Shown piece after piece: positions 6,012-49,282 of a stretch of 64,000 nucleotides of DNA (position 1 is its first letter; every line of letters begins with the position of its first letter). Source of the DNA: Acidobacteriota bacterium (lineage in GTDB: Bacteria; Acidobacteriota; Terriglobia; UBA7540); the NCBI GenBank assembly GCA_902812465.1, contig CADDZE010000001.1:1-64000 (forward strand), read 5' to 3'. The notes below the pieces were generated by a model. It was not told where the DNA came from and searched no databases. It was given only the letters and a program-made list of their open reading frames with translations. The position numbers were made by a program, and so were the translations under genes.

Positions 6012-7547
6012 TCACCGGCTAGCAGGCAAGCGGCCGTAAAGCGCGGTGAATTCCGCTAGCCGCGCACACTTGGCCTCAGTGAGCAATTCGCGGTGGAAGC
6101 GCCAGCGCCAGTTGCCATGCGGCCGCCCAGGCGTGTTCATGCGAGCCTCGCTGCCTAGGTCGAGGACGTCCTGCAGGGGCGCGATCGCCGTGTCGGCCAC
6201 GGACGCCCAGGCGGCGCGAATGAGCGTCCAGTTCATTTCCCGGCCGTCGGTAGCCAGATAGGCGCGCGCAAAAGCCCTCTCGCGCTCGAACTGCTCACGC
6301 GTCAGGGTGGTACCCGCACCGTCGCTGTTCCACCAACCGAGCGTAGTGTCGTTATCATGTGTGCCGGTATAGACGACGAGGTTGTAATGATAATGGTGAG
6401 GCATGAAGTTGGGAGACTGGAAGGTGCCGCCGAAAGCAAACTGCAGCACCGCCATGCCCGGGAATCCGAGGCGCTCCCGCAGGGCTTCTACTTCCGGCGT
6501 GATCAGCCCCAAGGTCTCCGCCACAATCGCTACCTCGCCGAGGGCCTCGCGGACAGCGCGGAACAGGGCCTCCCCGGGTCCCGGCTTCCACTCGCCGTGC
6601 ATCGCGTGGGTGGCGTCGCCCGGCACCTCCCAGTAAGACTCGAAACCGCGAAAGTGGTCCAGGCGCAGGATATCGACGCGTTCGAGCATGGTGCGCAGGC
6701 GGTCGATCCACCACTGGTAGCCGGTTTCCGCCAGCACGGGCCAGCGGTAGAGCGGATTTCCCCAGAGCTGGCCTGTGGGGCTGAAGTAATCGGGGGGAAC
6801 GCCGCTCATGACCGTCATTCGCCCTTGAGCGTCAAGGTGGAAGAGCTCGCGGCGCGACCACGCATCGGCCGAATCGTGAGCGGCGAAGATGGGTACGTCC
6901 CCCATGATACGAATCTGGCGTGCGTGGCAGTAGGCACGCAGCCGGTTCCACTGCCTCCAGAACTCGTACTGCCAGTACTTCTGGCACTCCACCCGCGGCC
7001 GGTACTGGTCGGCCAGACGGGCGAGGTCCGCGGCGGCACCGGCAGCCAGCTCGCGTGGCCACTCGTACCACGGAGCGCCCCCTTGCAATTCCTTCAGCGT
7101 CATAAACACCGAATAAGCGTCGAGCCAGTGAGTATTATTCCGGCAGAACTGCTCGAAGGCACGGCGCTGTTCGGCCGATGCGTCCGCCTGAAAGGTTTCG
7201 AAAGCGCGGCGCAGCAAAGGCAGCTTTAGCTGGCGAGCCCGAACATAGTCGGCCGTTCCCTCCGGGAGGGAAGCGACACGCTCCAGCTCAGCCCGCGCAA
7301 GAATCCCCTCTTCTGCCAGGCGTTCGAGGCTGATCAGCAGGGGGTTGCCGGCGAAGACGGAGAAGGATTGATAAGGCGAATCGCCCCAGCCGGTGGGCCC
7401 GAGCGGAAGAACCTGCCAGATGCTCTGCCGCGCGGAAGCCAAAAAATCAACAAAGCGATACGCTTCGGGCCCGAGATCGCCCACCCCGAAGCGGCCGGGA
7501 AGGGAGGTAATGTGGAGAAGGATGCCGCTGGCGCGAGGCAGTCTCAT
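6012..7547 (-). CDS. malQ: 4-alpha-glucanotransferase (amylomaltase, GH77)
   Basis: This enzyme transfers alpha-1,4-glucan segments between maltodextrins in cytoplasmic glycogen or maltose metabolism. The 511-residue length and all GH77 motifs fit: the N-terminal SGILLHITSLPGRFGVGDLG, the nucleophile Asp297 in ILRLDHFRGF, acid/base Glu344 in VAETLGL and the third carboxylate Asp398 in YTGTHDNDTT. These match Asp293, Glu340 and Asp395 of the Thermus enzyme. WGNPLYRW and the 250s-loop region are present. It lies alone, about 60 bases before smpB on the same strand, with no glycogen genes alongside. Confidence 0.95.
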   Translation of the reverse strand: MRLPRASGILLHITSLPGRFGVGDLGPEAYRFVDFLASARQSIWQVLPLGPTGWGDSPYQSFSVFAGNPLLISLERLAEEGILARAELERVASLPEGTADYVRARQLKLPLLRRAFETFQADASAEQRRAFEQFCRNNTHWLDAYSVFMTLKELQGGAPWYEWPRELAAGAAADLARLADQYRPRVECQKYWQYEFWRQWNRLRAYCHARQIRIMGDVPIFAAHDSADAWSRRELFHLDAQGRMTVMSGVPPDYFSPTGQLWGNPLYRWPVLAETGYQWWIDRLRTMLERVDILRLDHFRGFESYWEVPGDATHAMHGEWKPGPGEALFRAVREALGEVAIVAETLGLITPEVEALRERLGFPGMAVLQFAFGGTFQSPNFMPHHYHYNLVVYTGTHDNDTTLGWWNSDGAGTTLTREQFERERAFARAYLATDGREMNWTLIRAAWASVADTAIAPLQDVLDLGSEARMNTPGRPHGNWRWRFHRELLTEAKCARLAEFTALYGRLPASR

Positions 7548-26627: not shown

Positions 26628-26663
26628 TAGATCGTCCGACTCCATCTCTGGGAGAGAAAACCC

Positions 26664-27269
26664 ATGCAGAAGCAGTTACTCATCACCATTTTTTCGGCGA
26701 TCGTCCTTGGGACGGCCACCTCGTGCCGAGCCGCGGAGATTCCCGCCGCCAAAATCAAGGTGGGCGACATGATGCCCGACTTCACTCTTCCGGATCCCGG
26801 AGGCCAAATGCATTCGCTCTATGACTTGCGGGGCCACAAGGCGGTGGCGGTGATTTTCATCGCCACACGCTGCCCCTATTCGAACGCCTTCACCGGCGTC
26901 ATGTCGCGGCTAGCCCAGGAATACTCAGCCAAGGGCGTCGCCTTTGTGGGGATCAATGCGAACAAGACGGAGCCAGCGGCGGAAGTGGCCGAACACGCGC
27001 GAACCCACGGCCTCAACTTTCTGATCCTCAAGGATCCCGAGGACACGGTGGCCAACCGGTTGGGTGCCCGCGTGACGCCAGAGGTCTTCCTCATGGACAG
27101 CAACTGGGTGGTTCGCTATCACGGCGCTCTCGGCGGAAGCCAACACCCCACGACGGATCCTCAGCAGGCCAGCGACGAGGAGGTGCGTCCCGCTCTCGAT
27201 GCGGTTCTCACCGGGCAGCCCGTCGCCGTGAGCGAAACTAAGGCGTTCGGGTGTACCATCAAGCGCTGA
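26664..27269 (+). CDS. Exported redoxin (AhpC/TSA-like) with CPYSN active site
   Basis: A 201-residue thioredoxin-fold protein with a signal peptide (about 1-23). The redoxin domain opens with VGDMMPDFTLPDPGGQ and has the active-site Cys70 in IATRCPYSNAF, in the place of the CxxC motif. A second cysteine lies near the C-terminus (Cys197 in FGCTIKR) and could act as the resolving residue. VTPEVFLMDSNWVVRYHGAL contains the cis-proline. Probable role: periplasmic thiol redox or peroxide handling. It follows the TolC gene by 36 bases and has a distant relative at 46503-47228 with CPISN. Confidence 0.85.
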   Translation: MQKQLLITIFSAIVLGTATSCRAAEIPAAKIKVGDMMPDFTLPDPGGQMHSLYDLRGHKAVAVIFIATRCPYSNAFTGVMSRLAQEYSAKGVAFVGINANKTEPAAEVAEHARTHGLNFLILKDPEDTVANRLGARVTPEVFLMDSNWVVRYHGALGGSQHPTTDPQQASDEEVRPALDAVLTGQPVAVSETKAFGCTIKR

Positions 27270-41639: not shown

Positions 41640-42560
41640 ATGCGCGACGTGGTGATCATGGGCTCCGGCTGCGCAGGGCTGACGGCAGCCATTTATGCGG
41701 CGCGAGCCAATTTGAAGCCGCTGGTGATTCGCGGCGTGGAGGCGGGCGGCCAGCTCACTCTGACCACGCTGGTGGAGAACTTTCCCGGTTTCCCCAAAGG
41801 CGTGCAGGGGCCGGAGCTCATCGAGCGGATGATGGAACAGGCGGCCCAATTTGGCGCCGAGTTCCTGGAGGGTGATGTGACGCGCGCTGACCTCTCGCGG
41901 CGTCCGTTTATTCTCGAAGTGGGCAAGGAACAGATGGAGACCCGCACCCTGATCGTGGCGAGCGGAGCCTCTGCCAAGCTTCTCGGCCTTGAATCGGAGC
42001 GCAAGCTGCTGGGGCATGGCGTCTCGACCTGTGCCACTTGCGATGGCTACTTCTTCCGCGGAAAGCCGGTGGTGGTGGTGGGCGGCGGCGATACCGCCGC
42101 TGAGGATGCCTTGTTCCTCACCCGCTATGCCACGGAGGTCTGCCTCATTCATCGGCGCGACCAGTTGCGGGCTTCGAAGATCATGCAAGACCGCCTTTTC
42201 CGCAACGAGAAGATCAAGCCGGTGTGGAACACCGTCGTCACCGACGTGCTCGATGCCGCCAAGGGTGAAGTCACCGGCGTGAAACTGAAGAACGTGCAGA
42301 CCGGTGAAGAGCGGTTCCATCCTTGCAGTGGCGTCTTCATCGGTATCGGTCATGCGCCGAATACGGCGCTGTTCCGCGGCCAGCTGGAGATGGACGAGCT
42401 CGGCTACATCGTCACCCGAAACGGATCGAAGACCAATGTGCCCGGTGTCTTCGCCGCTGGCGACGTGCAGGATCGCGTCTACCGGCAGGCAGTGACGGCT
42501 GCGGGCTCCGGATGTATGGCCGCCATGGATGCTGAGCGCTTTCTCGAAGCCGAACACTGA
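41640..42560 (+). CDS. trxB: Thioredoxin reductase
   Basis: A 306-residue flavoprotein that reduces thioredoxin with NADPH. The FAD-binding GxGxxG is GSGCAGLTAAIYAARANLKP near the N-terminus. The redox-active disulfide is in CATCDGYFF. The NADPH fold GGGDTAAEDALFL follows, and the C-terminal GVFAAGDVQDRVYRQAVTAA closes the FAD domain. Length and motif order fit low-molecular-weight TrxB. It ends convergent to the O-methyltransferase with only 26 bases between. The thioredoxin gene itself is not adjacent. Confidence 0.95.
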   Translation: MRDVVIMGSGCAGLTAAIYAARANLKPLVIRGVEAGGQLTLTTLVENFPGFPKGVQGPELIERMMEQAAQFGAEFLEGDVTRADLSRRPFILEVGKEQMETRTLIVASGASAKLLGLESERKLLGHGVSTCATCDGYFFRGKPVVVVGGGDTAAEDALFLTRYATEVCLIHRRDQLRASKIMQDRLFRNEKIKPVWNTVVTDVLDAAKGEVTGVKLKNVQTGEERFHPCSGVFIGIGHAPNTALFRGQLEMDELGYIVTRNGSKTNVPGVFAAGDVQDRVYRQAVTAAGSGCMAAMDAERFLEAEH

Positions 42561-43421: not shown

Positions 43422-44465
43422 TCACGGCTCCTCCTGCGACCGGCTCCTGCGGCTCAGCTCGAATTCGCGCTCGGCGCTCTGCGTGCGTCCCAGCTCACGG
43501 TAAGCCGTGCCGAGCAAATAATGCGCCGACGCGTTGTTCGGATCCATTTTCAGCGCTTGCTGAAGGAACTCCGCTGCCAGGGCCGCATCGCCCTTCTTCA
43601 GTTGGACCTTGCCCATCAGGATGAACGAGCCGCTGAAATCGCGGTTGAGCCAAATCGCCTGCTTCAGAGCGCGCTCTGCATCGTTCCAGCGTTCCAGGCG
43701 GGCGTAGGCGTCCCCCAGGCGCCAGTAAGGCATCCACAGAACTGGGTCGAGCTCGAGTTCCTTGCGAAACTCATCGATGGCCTGTGCGATATGCGAGCGG
43801 TAAAGCTCGATTTCGCCGATCAAGAAGTGGGCCATGGGGAGGCGGGGATCCAGGGCCAGGGCACTTTGCAGCTCCTTCATGGCCTGATCCTCGAAGTTCT
43901 GCCGGATCAGCATTTGGCCGAGCACTAAATGCGCCTGGGCGCTGTTCGGCGGGGTACCAAAAACCCGGGCAAAGGCGTTGCGCGCCTTCTCGTACTGATA
44001 CGTCTGGATATAACTGATCCCCAGCAGAAAGGTACCGTTGACCTCAGGTTCGGGCAGCCAGGACTGGACCTTTTCCAGCAGGGGGATCGCCTGGCGGGCG
44101 TGCCCCAGCTGGTAGTAGGAAAGGCCCAGGAGTTGCGTCGATTCGCCATCATCGGGCTTCTGTTGCAGCGCCGCTTCCAGGTGCTTGGCGGCCTGCACAT
44201 AGTCGCGCTTGGCGTAGTAAGCTTTGCCCAGTGCTGCCTCGAGCCCGGGCGTTTGCAGACCGGCCTGAGCAGCCTGGTTAAGCAGCGCGATTGCTTCGTC
44301 AGGCTTCCCCTGTTCGACTAGGGCCTTGGCGCGTGAGATATCGTTGGCAGGTGACGCTGAAGGCGGCGCAGCCTGCGGCACAGAGGGTCCGCGGGCGCTG
44401 CAGCAGAGGCAGACCGTCAGAAGGGTCGGAAGAATTCTGCCTGCCGTCCTGCCCGCCTTCTCCAT
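43422..44465 (-). CDS. Exported TPR protein of the PHM-like cluster
   Basis: A protein of about 347 residues with a signal-like N-terminus (TAGRILPTLLTVCLCCSARG) and around eight TPR units (for example LEAALGKAYYAKRDYVQAAK and AHYLLGTAYRELGRTQSAER). TPR arrays mediate protein contacts, and no catalytic residues are present. ATG 44465 begins 25 bases after the stop of the heme-PHM-TPR gene. A start at 44522 would overlap it by 32 bases. The cysteine pair CLCC could be a lipidation site, which is uncertain. It is the last gene of the block running from 47.2 kb to 43.4 kb on the minus strand. Confidence 0.8.
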   Translation of the reverse strand: MEKAGRTAGRILPTLLTVCLCCSARGPSVPQAAPPSASPANDISRAKALVEQGKPDEAIALLNQAAQAGLQTPGLEAALGKAYYAKRDYVQAAKHLEAALQQKPDDGESTQLLGLSYYQLGHARQAIPLLEKVQSWLPEPEVNGTFLLGISYIQTYQYEKARNAFARVFGTPPNSAQAHLVLGQMLIRQNFEDQAMKELQSALALDPRLPMAHFLIGEIELYRSHIAQAIDEFRKELELDPVLWMPYWRLGDAYARLERWNDAERALKQAIWLNRDFSGSFILMGKVQLKKGDAALAAEFLQQALKMDPNNASAHYLLGTAYRELGRTQSAEREFELSRRSRSQEEP

Positions 44466-44490
44466 GAACTTCGCCACGGCAATGAGCAAC

Positions 44491-46500
44491 TCAGTTCCTT
44501 TCTGCAAGCCTCGCCTGCGCACGCTTCAGATTCTCGCGCGCGACCGTGAGTCCGGGGTCGATCCGAAGGGCCGCTTCAAACTCGGCTACTGCCTGCTCGA
44601 GCCTACCCTGGATGGCGTAGACTGCACCCAGGTCGCTGTGGGCGCTTGCGTTCGCGGGATCAAGGCGCAGCGCCGCTTCGAACTCGAGGATAGCGCGGGC
44701 GAAATCGCGCTGCTCGGCCAAGATGCGACCCAGATCATAGTGAACCACGCCGTTCTGGGGATCGAACTTCAGCGCTTGTTCGAACTGTGCCGCTGCCTCG
44801 GCATTTCTTCCCTGGAGGGCAAGGGCCCGGCCAAGGTTGGCGTGTGCTTCGGAATCGCCTGGTCTGGCGCTTAACACCTGTCGAAACTCGCGGCATGCCT
44901 CCTCCGCTTTGCCCTGTGAAAGCCACGCACTACCCAGGTTGTAGTGCGCCTGCAAGTAGTCTGGCTGGGCCTTCAAGGCCCTCTGGTATTCGGCGATGGC
45001 GTCCTCGGTGTTGCCCATGGACTGCAGCGCCGCACCCAGATTGTTGTGCGCCACAGCGTCCTCCGGGCGCACCTCGAGGACGCGGCGATACTCCGCGATC
45101 GCCTCGGCGGGTTTGCCCATTGCCTCGAGGGCAGCGCCCAGGTTGAAGTGGGCGAGGTAATCCCCGGGGTCCTGGGCGGCGCGATGTCGCATGAGAGCAA
45201 GCTGAAGGATCAACCGGGGATCCGTCTTCGAATCCGGGCTGCTAACCGGCAGCACTTGGAGCCATAGGTGACCCATCTCGTCGGTGGCCTGATTGCCAGC
45301 CACCACGCGCTTCGGCGGATGGCTGGGATTGCGGACGTTAGCGCTTGAATTATCGTACGTCCAGCGCATGTGGAGAATCGTACCGCGGGGCAGCGCCACT
45401 GGCTGCCGGTAGCGGAACACGCCTTGCCAATCAAGGTTCCAGTCTTTGATCCAGATGAGCCATTTGCGTGCTCCGCCGGGCAGGGTGGCGAATCCTTGAA
45501 CCTCCTTGCCCAGATAGTGAGCGTGGGGATAAATGGCCTGCACCTGCACGTCCAGCGGCAGTGGGAAGTCGTCGCTCACCACGAAGTTTCTCGCGCCGGG
45601 GGGAATCGAAATCGCGCGGTCGTTCTCAAGTTGGAGCAGCATGGGAAGACGGGACGGGGGCTGGTCCGTAAAGTAGAGCGCGACTTCCGGCTGGATCAGC
45701 TCGGGCTTGCCGCTGGGTCGCATGTGAAGGTTCAGGACGAGATCGGTGCCAGGGTCGAGCCTCCACTGCATTCCAGGAGGCTCAAACACGGGCGGCGTGC
45801 CGGGCTTCCAGAAAAGGAAGTGGCTGTCCGGATCAAATCGGTCGGACTCGATCTCCAGGTCCATCCCGGCAAAGCCGGGCTGCCCGTCCTTCCCATCGCG
45901 CAGCCTTGACCATCCCGTACGGTCGAGCAGGATGTTGGCGTGGTGAAAAGTCTGCACGTTGCCGGGACGGAGCTCGATGGCGCGCACGTACCGTGGGCTC
46001 GAGACGGGTGCGGGAATGATTAGGTTGCGGAAGACATCTCGGCTTCCCTCGGCTCGCTGCGGAAGCTCATAGGAGCGCGGCGGGCGCACCACCAGGTCCG
46101 GCTTGCCGAGCTGCCAGCCTGCCGAGATGTGAGGCAGCGGCGGCCGACTCCGCAAGTCGCCTTCCACGGCTCCCTGCTCTACCCACCGCTGAATCAGCGC
46201 GATCTCACGGGCGCTGAGGCGTCCCGGCCCCTCAAAGTGCCCGTAACCCGGCTCAGGCAGCCAAGGCGGCATGAAGCGGGTGCGGGTGACCGCGGCGATT
46301 TGATGTGCGTGTCTTCGCGCATCAGCGTAGGTCAGCAGCGGGAACGGTCCGGATCCGCCGGGGCGATGACACGGTACGCAGCTTCGGTAAATGAGAGGAG
46401 CGATGTCCTGGTTGTACGTAACCCGGGTTTGTGGCAAGGCGACGGCAGCAACTGCTAATGCCACGATGAGCAGCGCGCAGCTCACACGCTTCGCGGCCAT
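44491..46500 (-). CDS. Cytochrome c - PHM-like copper monooxygenase - TPR fusion protein
   Basis: A 669-residue exported fusion with a signal peptide (about 1-24), a c-type heme site Cys41-x2-Cys44-His45 (CVPCHRPG), a two-part copper fold and five or more TPRs from about residue 450. The six copper ligands of peptidylglycine hydroxylating monooxygenase have clear counterparts: His186-His187 (TFHHANILL), His259 (LNLHMRP), His326-x-His328 (YPHAHYLGKEV) and Met409 (TDEMGHLW). That suggests oxygen activation on a carbon substrate, with the heme as a possible electron source. The start is ATG 46500; TTG 46506 also reads in frame. The preceding redoxin gene ends three bases before it. Annotators may call it a tetratricopeptide or ascorbate-dependent monooxygenase protein. 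Confidence 0.85.
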   Translation of the reverse strand: MAAKRVSCALLIVALAVAAVALPQTRVTYNQDIAPLIYRSCVPCHRPGGSGPFPLLTYADARRHAHQIAAVTRTRFMPPWLPEPGYGHFEGPGRLSAREIALIQRWVEQGAVEGDLRSRPPLPHISAGWQLGKPDLVVRPPRSYELPQRAEGSRDVFRNLIIPAPVSSPRYVRAIELRPGNVQTFHHANILLDRTGWSRLRDGKDGQPGFAGMDLEIESDRFDPDSHFLFWKPGTPPVFEPPGMQWRLDPGTDLVLNLHMRPSGKPELIQPEVALYFTDQPPSRLPMLLQLENDRAISIPPGARNFVVSDDFPLPLDVQVQAIYPHAHYLGKEVQGFATLPGGARKWLIWIKDWNLDWQGVFRYRQPVALPRGTILHMRWTYDNSSANVRNPSHPPKRVVAGNQATDEMGHLWLQVLPVSSPDSKTDPRLILQLALMRHRAAQDPGDYLAHFNLGAALEAMGKPAEAIAEYRRVLEVRPEDAVAHNNLGAALQSMGNTEDAIAEYQRALKAQPDYLQAHYNLGSAWLSQGKAEEACREFRQVLSARPGDSEAHANLGRALALQGRNAEAAAQFEQALKFDPQNGVVHYDLGRILAEQRDFARAILEFEAALRLDPANASAHSDLGAVYAIQGRLEQAVAEFEAALRIDPGLTVARENLKRAQARLAERN

Positions 46501-46502
46501 CT

Positions 46503-47228
46503 TCAATGCTCCAGATCCGAGATGAAGCAGCCTACCGCAGGGGTCGTCCTGGGGGCAACGGGTTGCTTGGCCGCGATCGCCTTCAGTACCTGCTCGAGGT
46601 CGTGAGTGGTGGGCTGAATGCGTTCCTGGCCAAAGTCCACGTACTTGTCGTCGATGCGGCCGCGATAGACCATCTTGGCTGCAGGTCCGCCGGGGACAAA
46701 GACTGCTGCCTCAGGAGTCACGCGCACGCCCGTCAACCGCACCAGCGCGTGCGTGGGGTCGCGCAGCACCTTGAGGTGATATCCGTAGGCGTTTAGGTAT
46801 CGGCGGATCGCTTCCGGTGGCTCCTCCGGGTCGACGAAGACCAGCCAGAAGGTGACCTGCGGAAACTCTTTGTCGAGCCGCTTGATCTCTGGGGCGTAGC
46901 GATTCGAAATGGGGCAGTCGGTGCGAAGGAATATGAATACCGTGGCCTGTCGGCCGCCCGCCCCTGCCAGCTTGGCAAAGCTAATCGAGCGGCCGGAAAG
47001 ATCGACCACGTTGATGCTCGCCGCTTGTGCTGCGGCCGCCGGTTCGTCTCCCGAGGCCGCTCTGGCGCGAGGAGCCAGGCCCGCCAGGAGCAATATTGCG
47101 GAAACTGCCCCGATGACCAACGTCGGCGGCTGGCCGAGGGAGCCTGTTGGCCGTCCTCCGAGCCTCGGCACGCGAGCAACAGGCGAGTCGACTGGGGCCC
47201 AGTCGATCGAGTAAGATATGGAAAACAT
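46503..47228 (-). CDS. Exported redoxin with CPISN active site
   Basis: A thioredoxin-fold protein of about 241 residues in this reading. The hydrophobic export segment is at LVIGAVSAILLLAGLAPRAR (about 37-56), so the first 36 residues may not be real. A TATAAT hexamer coincides with the apparent ATG, and a TTG near 47120 is an alternative start. The catalytic Cys105 is in FLRTDCPISNRY. A second Cys234 near the C-terminus (VGCFISD) matches the paralogue at 26664-27269. Probable role: thiol or copper handling for the PHM-like protein encoded just downstream. The two genes abut. Confidence 0.8.
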   Translation of the reverse strand: MFSISYSIDWAPVDSPVARVPRLGGRPTGSLGQPPTLVIGAVSAILLLAGLAPRARAASGDEPAAAAQAASINVVDLSGRSISFAKLAGAGGRQATVFIFLRTDCPISNRYAPEIKRLDKEFPQVTFWLVFVDPEEPPEAIRRYLNAYGYHLKVLRDPTHALVRLTGVRVTPEAAVFVPGGPAAKMVYRGRIDDKYVDFGQERIQPTTHDLEQVLKAIAAKQPVAPRTTPAVGCFISDLEH

Positions 47229-47342
47229 TATAGATATGGTGGCTATACGTTCATTTTAAAACAAGAGACTTGCCACCATTTCCGCCTCGGGACAATCGAA
47301 GACGAGCGGGCGAACCTTGGGTCTTCGTTGCCGCCAACTTCC

Positions 47343-47401
47343 ATAAAATGTAACCGATTGATTCTGAACTACATTACGGCTTTGTTCGTAAAAAATTGTT
47401 C
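47343..47401. repeat. Intergenic direct repeat, copy 1 of pair B
   Basis: A 59-base AT-rich sequence beginning ATAAAATGTAA and containing CATTACGGCTTTGTT, then GTAAAAAA. It recurs at 47525-47585 with about 80 percent identity by eye. It lies in the 630-base gap between the redoxin gene and the second heme-PHM gene. Confidence 0.75.
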
Positions 47402-47524
47402 AACCCTGCCCAAGGCTCCTGACACCGCCAGTTCTGGCTGAGTAGCTCCCCACCCGCTGAGGATTCCAGGGCAAGAGCCGCGACTTTCAAAACACGAAGC
47501 ACGTACCTCCTTGCCCAAAAAGAC

Positions 47525-47585
47525 TATAAAATGTAAACCATTGATCCCAGGCAGCATTACGGCTTTGTTTGTAAAAAAATCGTTC
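47525..47585. repeat. Intergenic direct repeat, copy 2 of pair B
   Basis: The second copy of the repeat at 47343-47401, with the same ATAAAATGTAAACC start, CATTACGGCTTTGTT core and trailing A-run. The rest of the gap 47229-47857 contains no gene that I can support. Confidence 0.75.
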
Positions 47586-47857
47586 CGCCAGCTCGAACAG
47601 ACTTGCCGTTTAGGGTTCTTGCCTTGGTCTGCCGGACGGGCAGTGGAGGAAGCCGAGCCTGGCAGTCCGAAGTTTCGGCTCCCTCCGTCTCGGTCGGATC
47701 TTCGGGCTCAGTAGATGGCTGCTGCCGAGGCTGAGCACCCTTCTCGAAACCGTTGGCTCCATTCCTGGCATAAGTGCGTTCCTCACATGTATTTACCATG
47801 TAGTAATATAGGGCGGAAGCTCCCTTCCGATCAATCACGACGCCCGGTCACCAGCTT

Positions 47858-49141
47858 CTACTTTCCCGCTTTCGCGGGTGAGGCCTTTACCATCTCCAGA
47901 TGGAATTCACACATTTCATCCGTGCTTTGTTCACCCCAGGTCACCAGCTTGGGTGGGTGGTTGGGGTTGCGGGGATTCTCGGCCGAATTATCGTAGGTCC
48001 ATTGGACATTGATGCGCGTGCCCTGCGGCAAAAAGACGGGGTGACGGTAGCGGTATTCCTCCTGCCAATTGAAATCCCAGTGCTTGATCCAGATCAGCGG
48101 CTGGACGGTGCCGTCTGGCAAGGTGGCCGTGGCCTTAACCTCCTTGCCTAAGAGGTGTGCATGCGGTATCACTCCCAGCAGTTCCCCATCTTCCAGGGTG
48201 TAGGCGTAGCTATTCACCCTATAAGCCGGATCGCCAGGCAGGATATTGAGAAACTCAGTGCCCACCGTGATGTCGAAAGGTACTTTCTCTGCCGGCTCCT
48301 TGGCAAAATACAACCCTATTTGAAACTGCTCCTTTTCAGGCTTTCCGTCCGGATGGAAGTGGACCTGTACGACCAGGCCTGCGCCCTTGCGGATCCGGGT
48401 TGCCACACCCGCTGGCCAAGGTCTTGGGGTGGTGCCAGAGGTCCACAATCCGAGGTAGCCAGGCACCGGGAATCCGAAGCTCCCAAAACAGTCGTAACCC
48501 GATGCCGTACTACCCTGCAGGCGCTGCGCGGCGCCGTAGCGGTCTTCCACGATAATCGCATGGTGGACCACCCGGGCGTTTCCGGGGCGGAACTCGTAGG
48601 CGGAAATATACCGATCCTCGGGCAAGTGCAAGGGAATGACGAAACACCGATAGAGATCATTCGGGCCCGCGGGCACGTCGAAAGGCTGCCTAAGGCTGAC
48701 CACCAGATCGGGTTTGCCCAGGTACCAGGTATCAGCGAAGTGCGGGGGCGGGGGAAGATCATGAGGCTCGCCCGGCGGCATGCCCTCGGCGACCCACTTT
48801 TGAAAGGTCTCAATCTCTTCTTCGCTGAGCCTGCGGCTGCCGGCGAAATCGCCGAAGTTGGGCTCGGGCTTCCAGGGTGGCATGAAGCGGCTCTTGGTAA
48901 CAGCGGCTATCAAACTGCCATGAGCCCGGGCATCCGCGTAGCTAAGAAGTGAAAAGGGCGCCACCTGGCCCGGGCGATGGCAACCCGCGCAGTGGACAAA
49001 GATGATGGGAGCCACGTCTTTGGTGAACGTGGTGGGGGACTCGCCCCGGGCTGGAGGACTAAGGCGTGTTGCGGCCTCTGTGATGGCCATGGTGAAGCCG
49101 AAGACCACCACGAGCACGAGGAGATTCTTCGATCCCTGCAC
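47858..49141 (-). CDS. Cytochrome c - PHM-like copper monooxygenase
   Basis: A 427-residue exported protein with the same heme-PHM architecture as the 44491-46500 fusion but without TPRs. Signal peptide about 1-24. Heme c motif Cys51-x2-Cys54-His55 (CAGCHRPG). The PHM copper ligands line up as His193-His194 (VVHHAIIVED), His261 (VQVHFHPDG), His327-x-His329 (IPHAHLLGKEV) and Met410 (STDEMCEF). The C-terminal block WTYDNSAENPRNPNHPPKLV is shared with the fusion. The start is a GTG. The reaction is not known, but oxidation of a peptide, alkane or polysaccharide substrate is conceivable. An Oar-like receptor gene precedes it on the same strand, ending about 170 bases upstream behind a terminator. 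Confidence 0.85.
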   Translation of the reverse strand: MQGSKNLLVLVVVFGFTMAITEAATRLSPPARGESPTTFTKDVAPIIFVHCAGCHRPGQVAPFSLLSYADARAHGSLIAAVTKSRFMPPWKPEPNFGDFAGSRRLSEEEIETFQKWVAEGMPPGEPHDLPPPPHFADTWYLGKPDLVVSLRQPFDVPAGPNDLYRCFVIPLHLPEDRYISAYEFRPGNARVVHHAIIVEDRYGAAQRLQGSTASGYDCFGSFGFPVPGYLGLWTSGTTPRPWPAGVATRIRKGAGLVVQVHFHPDGKPEKEQFQIGLYFAKEPAEKVPFDITVGTEFLNILPGDPAYRVNSYAYTLEDGELLGVIPHAHLLGKEVKATATLPDGTVQPLIWIKHWDFNWQEEYRYRHPVFLPQGTRINVQWTYDNSAENPRNPNHPPKLVTWGEQSTDEMCEFHLEMVKASPAKAGK

Positions 49142-49251: not shown

Positions 49252-49282
49252 ATAAAAAGGGAGCCCCGGAAATAGGGCTCCC
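49252..49282 (-). terminator. Intrinsic terminator downstream of the first TonB-dependent receptor
   Basis: On the minus strand an 8-base perfect stem (GGGAGCCC and GGGCTCCC, at 49275-49282 and 49259-49266) with an 8-base loop is followed by TTTTTATT. This is the standard form of a rho-independent terminator. It lies 28 bases after the receptor stop. Confidence 0.85.

Follow-up and report, generated by a model that had tools for sequence, protein, structure and literature searches.

We analysed a 64,000-nucleotide stretch of DNA from an Acidobacteriota bacterium (contig CADDZE010000001.1, hereafter the window), in which the list of open reading frames places two relatives of peptidylglycine hydroxylating monooxygenase (PHM), a redoxin and a TPR protein in succession on the minus strand. 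The frames, strand and coordinates given in the initial annotation proved correct. In order of transcription the four genes, and a hairpin that precedes them, are:

49259..49282, minus strand: terminator-like hairpin (9 pairs and a T run), separating the heme-PHM genes from an outer-membrane receptor gene upstream of them
47858..49141, minus strand: heme-PHM protein 1, 427 aa, with a signal-like start, a cytochrome c domain and a PHM-type copper module; GTG start
46503..47228, minus strand: exported redoxin of thioredoxin fold with CPISN and a C-terminal GC (reading frame, Pfam, alignment and profile match)
44491..46500, minus strand: heme-PHM-TPR protein 2, 669 aa counted from the ATG at 46500
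43422..44522, minus strand: separate TPR protein with a signal-like N-terminus, probable last gene of the unit, included by position only

By inspection, the proteins of the locus begin with signal-like stretches. Protein 2 most likely starts at the ATG at 46500 and not at the TTG at 46506; this ATG lies two bases past the redoxin stop codon, so that the redoxin gene does adjoin the TPR fusion, as first described. The longest reading of the separate TPR gene overlaps the 3' end of protein 2. Because of this overlap and the two-base gap, the redoxin, protein 2 and the downstream TPR gene are likely to form a co-translated unit. Some 630 bases separate the protein 1 gene from the redoxin downstream of it. 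Membership of the outer-membrane receptor gene in the unit was set aside, since the terminator-like hairpin lies between; such receptors are moderately enriched beside PHM genes (23 of 61 stretches, 5 of 40 controls). An Rfam search gave no match, nor did a plasmid search with the redoxin as query. Near the unit, on the opposite strand, a frame at 41640-42560 (plus strand) resembles thioredoxin reductase by inspection (TCATCDGYFF).

A CxxCH heme site had been claimed near the N-terminus of both PHM-like proteins. It is present in each, and the cytochrome c domain also holds an invariant methionine:

48977..48991, minus strand: CAGCH heme attachment motif of protein 1
48881..48883, minus strand: Met of MPPW in protein 1, candidate sixth heme ligand with a putative axial role
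46366..46380, minus strand: CVPCH heme attachment motif of protein 2, from the alignment of homologues

CxxCH and the MPPW methionine are both invariant in 99 of 99 complete homologues, and Pfam Cytochrome_CBB3 matches all 23 members of a family profile weakly. The domain has the features of a c-type cytochrome, namely CxxCH and a distal, putatively axial ligand in an exported helical domain, and cytochrome c assembly genes were found in the same genome. Among loci picked up solely through the PHM C-domain model, MPPW begins exactly 36 residues past CxxCH in 23 of 29, the other six being incomplete or unrecognised by the motif scan. Since 23 loci chosen only for their copper domain carry this arrangement, the heme is not a by-product of profile choice.

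Downstream of the heme domain, each protein carries the residues that would bind the two coppers, CuH and CuM, of a PHM:

48560..48565, minus strand: HH of protein 1 (CuH), equivalent to rat PHM H107/H108
48359..48361, minus strand: H of protein 1 (CuH), equivalent to rat PHM H172
48155..48163, minus strand: HAH of protein 1 (CuM), equivalent to rat PHM H242/H244
47912..47914, minus strand: Met of DEM in protein 1 (CuM), equivalent to rat PHM M314
45940..45945, minus strand: HH of protein 2 (CuH), by alignment
45724..45726, minus strand: H of protein 2 (CuH, H172 equivalent), by alignment
45517..45525, minus strand: HAH of protein 2 (CuM), by alignment
45274..45276, minus strand: Met of DEM in protein 2 (CuM), by alignment

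These ligands had been assigned by eye, and the profile alignment bears the assignment out, putting HH, H, HxH and DEM on H107/H108, H172, H242/H244 and M314. Against PDB sequences, the 23-member family profile found rat PHM at an E-value of about 5e-15 and dopamine beta-hydroxylase (DBH) at 4e-6. Searched with the PHM domain models themselves, protein 1 passed the Pfam Cu2_monoox_C cut-off (29.3 bits against 23) and protein 2, which TPR models match, stayed under it (14.7 bits). AlphaFold models of both (pLDDT 89.5 and pTM 0.85 for protein 1, 90.0 and 0.84 for protein 2) have the predicted double jelly-roll fold of PHM. Foldseek gave rat PHM as the top PDB fold match of the protein 1 model (3mll, E 9.6e-16, TM 0.69 by target length), with human DBH matched too, and paired the protein 2 model with TPR and PHM structures. 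Superposition on rat PHM had been proposed as a check; structure prediction returned a fold match, and the profile alignment put the six ligands in register.

None of the six copper ligands varies in any of 100 homologues. The sample, drawn from the window's phylum, Planctomycetota, Verrucomicrobia and one unclassified bacterium, was mostly recruited with a heme-including profile, therefore leans towards intact members, and is counted without regard to relatedness. As only 14 of about 390 columns in this alignment are fully invariant, the motifs are not there by chance. The equivalent of PHM Gln272 is kept in 95 of the 100. Judged by predicted fold and copper-ligand sites, both proteins are members of the PHM/DBH copper superfamily, and profile, fold and conservation together support an exported heme-PHM family in which both predicted copper sites are complete. 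The same genome also holds, at 6726-7289 (minus strand) of locus L130 (around G000:C10:30770-31009), a short remnant of a third cytochrome-PHM gene, which is without CxxCH, has DEI in place of DEM and looks degenerate.

Heme-PHM shares with rat PHM (PDB 1PHM, 3MLL) the two jelly-roll domains, the six copper ligands and the Gln272 equivalent. It differs in being bacterial, in its additional N-terminal covalent heme domain and its redoxin and TPR partners, in the absence from most members of Cys equivalents of the PHM disulfides, and in not conserving the Arg240 clamp. DBH (PDB 4ZEL) shares the copper fold; it has a DOMON domain, whereas heme-PHM has a heme c domain in that place. Bacterial members of Pfam PF03712 and PF01082 are also comparable: protein 1 passes the PF03712 cut-off and members of the family match both models, although the enzyme named by these models is ascorbate-dependent. 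In NCBIfam, protein 1 has no matching model.

The initial annotation knew of no characterised heme-PHM-TPR protein. In protein 2 this fusion lies at:

44494..45225, minus strand: C-terminal TPR domain of protein 2 (model, fold match and Pfam survey)

C-terminal extensions longer than 100 aa occur in 56 of 80 heme-PHM frames read, and Pfam finds TPRs in 53 of these 56, so that an oddity of the window or a frame error was rejected. The fusion is far from rare, forming a large clade in the window's phylum and occurring at Planctomycetota and Verrucomicrobia loci. In a FastTree tree, most TPR-tailed members appear to make up one large clade, with a few long-tailed members elsewhere and the TPR-less protein 1 just outside it; many heme-PHM members are without TPRs. 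Two 895-aa heme-PHM proteins (L021, L034) have a C-terminal extension of about 440 aa that is not TPR-like by eye.

Two cysteines of the redoxin are invariant among 18 relatives, as is the proline of the active-site motif:

46902..46916, minus strand: CPISN active-site motif of the redoxin
46527..46529, minus strand: second invariant redoxin cysteine, that of the C-terminal GC, by alignment

Pfam AhpC-TSA matches the redoxin, and its profile best matches the 2YWI/2CVB/ResA group of thiol-disulfide oxidoreductases (E 8e-24 to 2ywi), with which it shares the fold and, in the case of 2YWI, also the C-terminal GC. The window redoxin differs from these proteins in that CPISN is a CXXS variant and in being fused or linked to heme-PHM. 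Its thioredoxin fold and two redox cysteines fit a thiol-disulfide oxidoreductase of the ResA/2YWI kind, in which the cysteines are predicted to form a disulfide. A peroxiredoxin identity was rejected by inspection, as PxxxTxxC is absent and variable residues precede CPISN. The window holds another redoxin that belongs to the same broad family, with CPYSN and a C-terminal GC, at 26631-27266 (plus strand); no PHM gene adjoins it.

The proposed linkage of CPISN redoxins with heme-PHM was borne out across genomes. In 396 genomes of the window's phylum, a group of 40 high-scoring redoxins (158 bits and up) contains at least 29 with a heme-PHM gene no more than 2 kb away; 11 of the 40, among the matches listed, are not near one, which counts against the interpretation that we favour below. 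A heme-PHM gene is present in 39 of 40 redoxin genomes, compared with 90 of 396 overall (hypergeometric p about 1e-27, ignoring relatedness), and the redoxin occurs in 21 of 61 PHM stretches and in 0 of 40 control stretches from the same genomes. Among 20 Planctomycetota loci, a sample biased because long frames were part of the selection, 17 encode redoxin, cytochrome and PHM as one chain, and another two have the redoxin adjoining. Redoxin fusions also occur in the window's phylum, at the N terminus (L127, L129) or the C terminus (L100), and in an unclassified bacterium (L008). On this genomic evidence, the CPISN redoxin is a genuine functional partner of heme-PHM.

Six of the Planctomycetota single chains (L139-L141, L144, L145, L149) have CPxC where the window has CPIS. 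FG-GAP/UnbV_ASPIC genes lie near heme-PHM genes at L078, L087, L090, L092, L106, L111, L116 and L119, an association that is suggestive only (8 of 61 stretches, 1 of 40 controls, p 0.06).

We consider it on balance probable that heme-PHM is an exported PHM-type (non-coupled, two-copper) monooxygenase that receives electrons via its own covalent c-type heme. The protein would be exported, with heme attached at CxxCH and a copper loaded at each of the HHH and HHM sites. The heme would be reduced by a periplasmic one-electron donor, either the cytochrome c pool or the redoxin, and would pass electrons to CuH and, through CuH, to CuM, where bound oxygen would hydroxylate a substrate C-H bond. The heme would thus stand in for ascorbate, and the TPRs may hold partner proteins. 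The redoxin would act with the enzyme itself, by way of the heme cysteines, peroxide, an electron partner or the substrate, and not on the copper ligands. A domain that keeps its ligands can still be a sensor or a copper store, which counts against this reading.

Arg240 in PHM binds the substrate carboxylate. Its equivalent is I in protein 1 and mostly Y, Q, A, T or M across the 100 homologues; that of Tyr318 is H in protein 1, Y in 19 homologues and W or F in 63. Since the Arg240 position varies and Tyr318 is kept only in part, the substrate must be another than that of PHM and is not readable from homology; to judge by these residues, it is probably not a glycine-extended peptide, and the lack of a conserved Arg240 led us to reject peptide amidation as the probable role. 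It is therefore highly improbable that these are true PHM/PAM enzymes catalysing peptidylglycine hydroxylation, the first step of amidation, with heme in ascorbate's place, even though fold and copper ligands are those of PHM and M28 peptidase genes lie close to four related loci; Pfam, moreover, finds no lyase domain in protein 1 or protein 2. The M28 genes (L118, L121, L123, L124) encode PA and dimerisation domains and come from one bacterial family. Common TPR fusion and the frequent presence of several paralogues per genome would suit a copper or heme redox sensor or scaffold, in which the ligands bind metal and the TPRs signal without catalysis. We think such a role quite unlikely, as both copper sites are invariant and the Gln272 equivalent is nearly so, as catalysis would demand, and many members are TPR-free.

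Other readings turn on the redoxin. Its tight linkage to heme-PHM and its match to the AhpC-TSA family would fit a heme-copper module that hydroxylates no substrate but is an oxidase, or produces or eliminates peroxide, while peroxide is eliminated or used by the redoxin; the missing peroxiredoxin motif and the profile match to thiol-disulfide oxidoreductases make this unlikely. The initial annotation had suggested thiol or copper maturation. The copper part of that suggestion is weakened, as the copper ligands are His and Met, and as the PHM part lacks any Cys besides those of the heme motif in 15 of 19 redoxin-paired proteins, the window's among them, so that the redoxin probably does not target the copper sites. 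In most redoxin-paired proteins these heme cysteines are the only ones that the cytochrome-PHM part contains, and ResA proteins are among the redoxin's relatives; both would suit a maturation factor whose sole task is to hold the CxxCH thiols in the reduced state so that heme can be attached. That reading is compatible with a heme-driven monooxygenase, and we regard it as possible if doubtful: a dedicated helper that acts only once is less to be expected, given that Planctomycetota fuse the redoxin permanently to the enzyme and that the window's genome has general cytochrome c assembly genes at other sites. We give only a small chance to an extension of the monooxygenase reading in which electrons would flow from the redoxin dithiol to the heme and on to CuH, making a self-contained, thiol-driven copper monooxygenase that needs no ascorbate.

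Heme-PHM genes occur in 90 of the 396 genomes surveyed from the window's phylum, in 43 of 119 Planctomycetota genomes and in Verrucomicrobia. Searches of the full text of open papers yielded no description of the family, and heme-PHM is apparently an undescribed, widespread variant of the PHM enzyme kind. Because the family is this common, unrecognised exported oxidation chemistry may be widespread. If the thiol-driven chain is true, the PHM superfamily would gain a new design of electron supply, built as one polypeptide in many Planctomycetota and as separate genes in the window. PHM and DBH, studied in animals, are textbook examples of copper oxygenases; the electron route to and across their copper sites is still debated. 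In a natural PHM that carries its own heme donor, visible by spectroscopy, this route could be traced directly.
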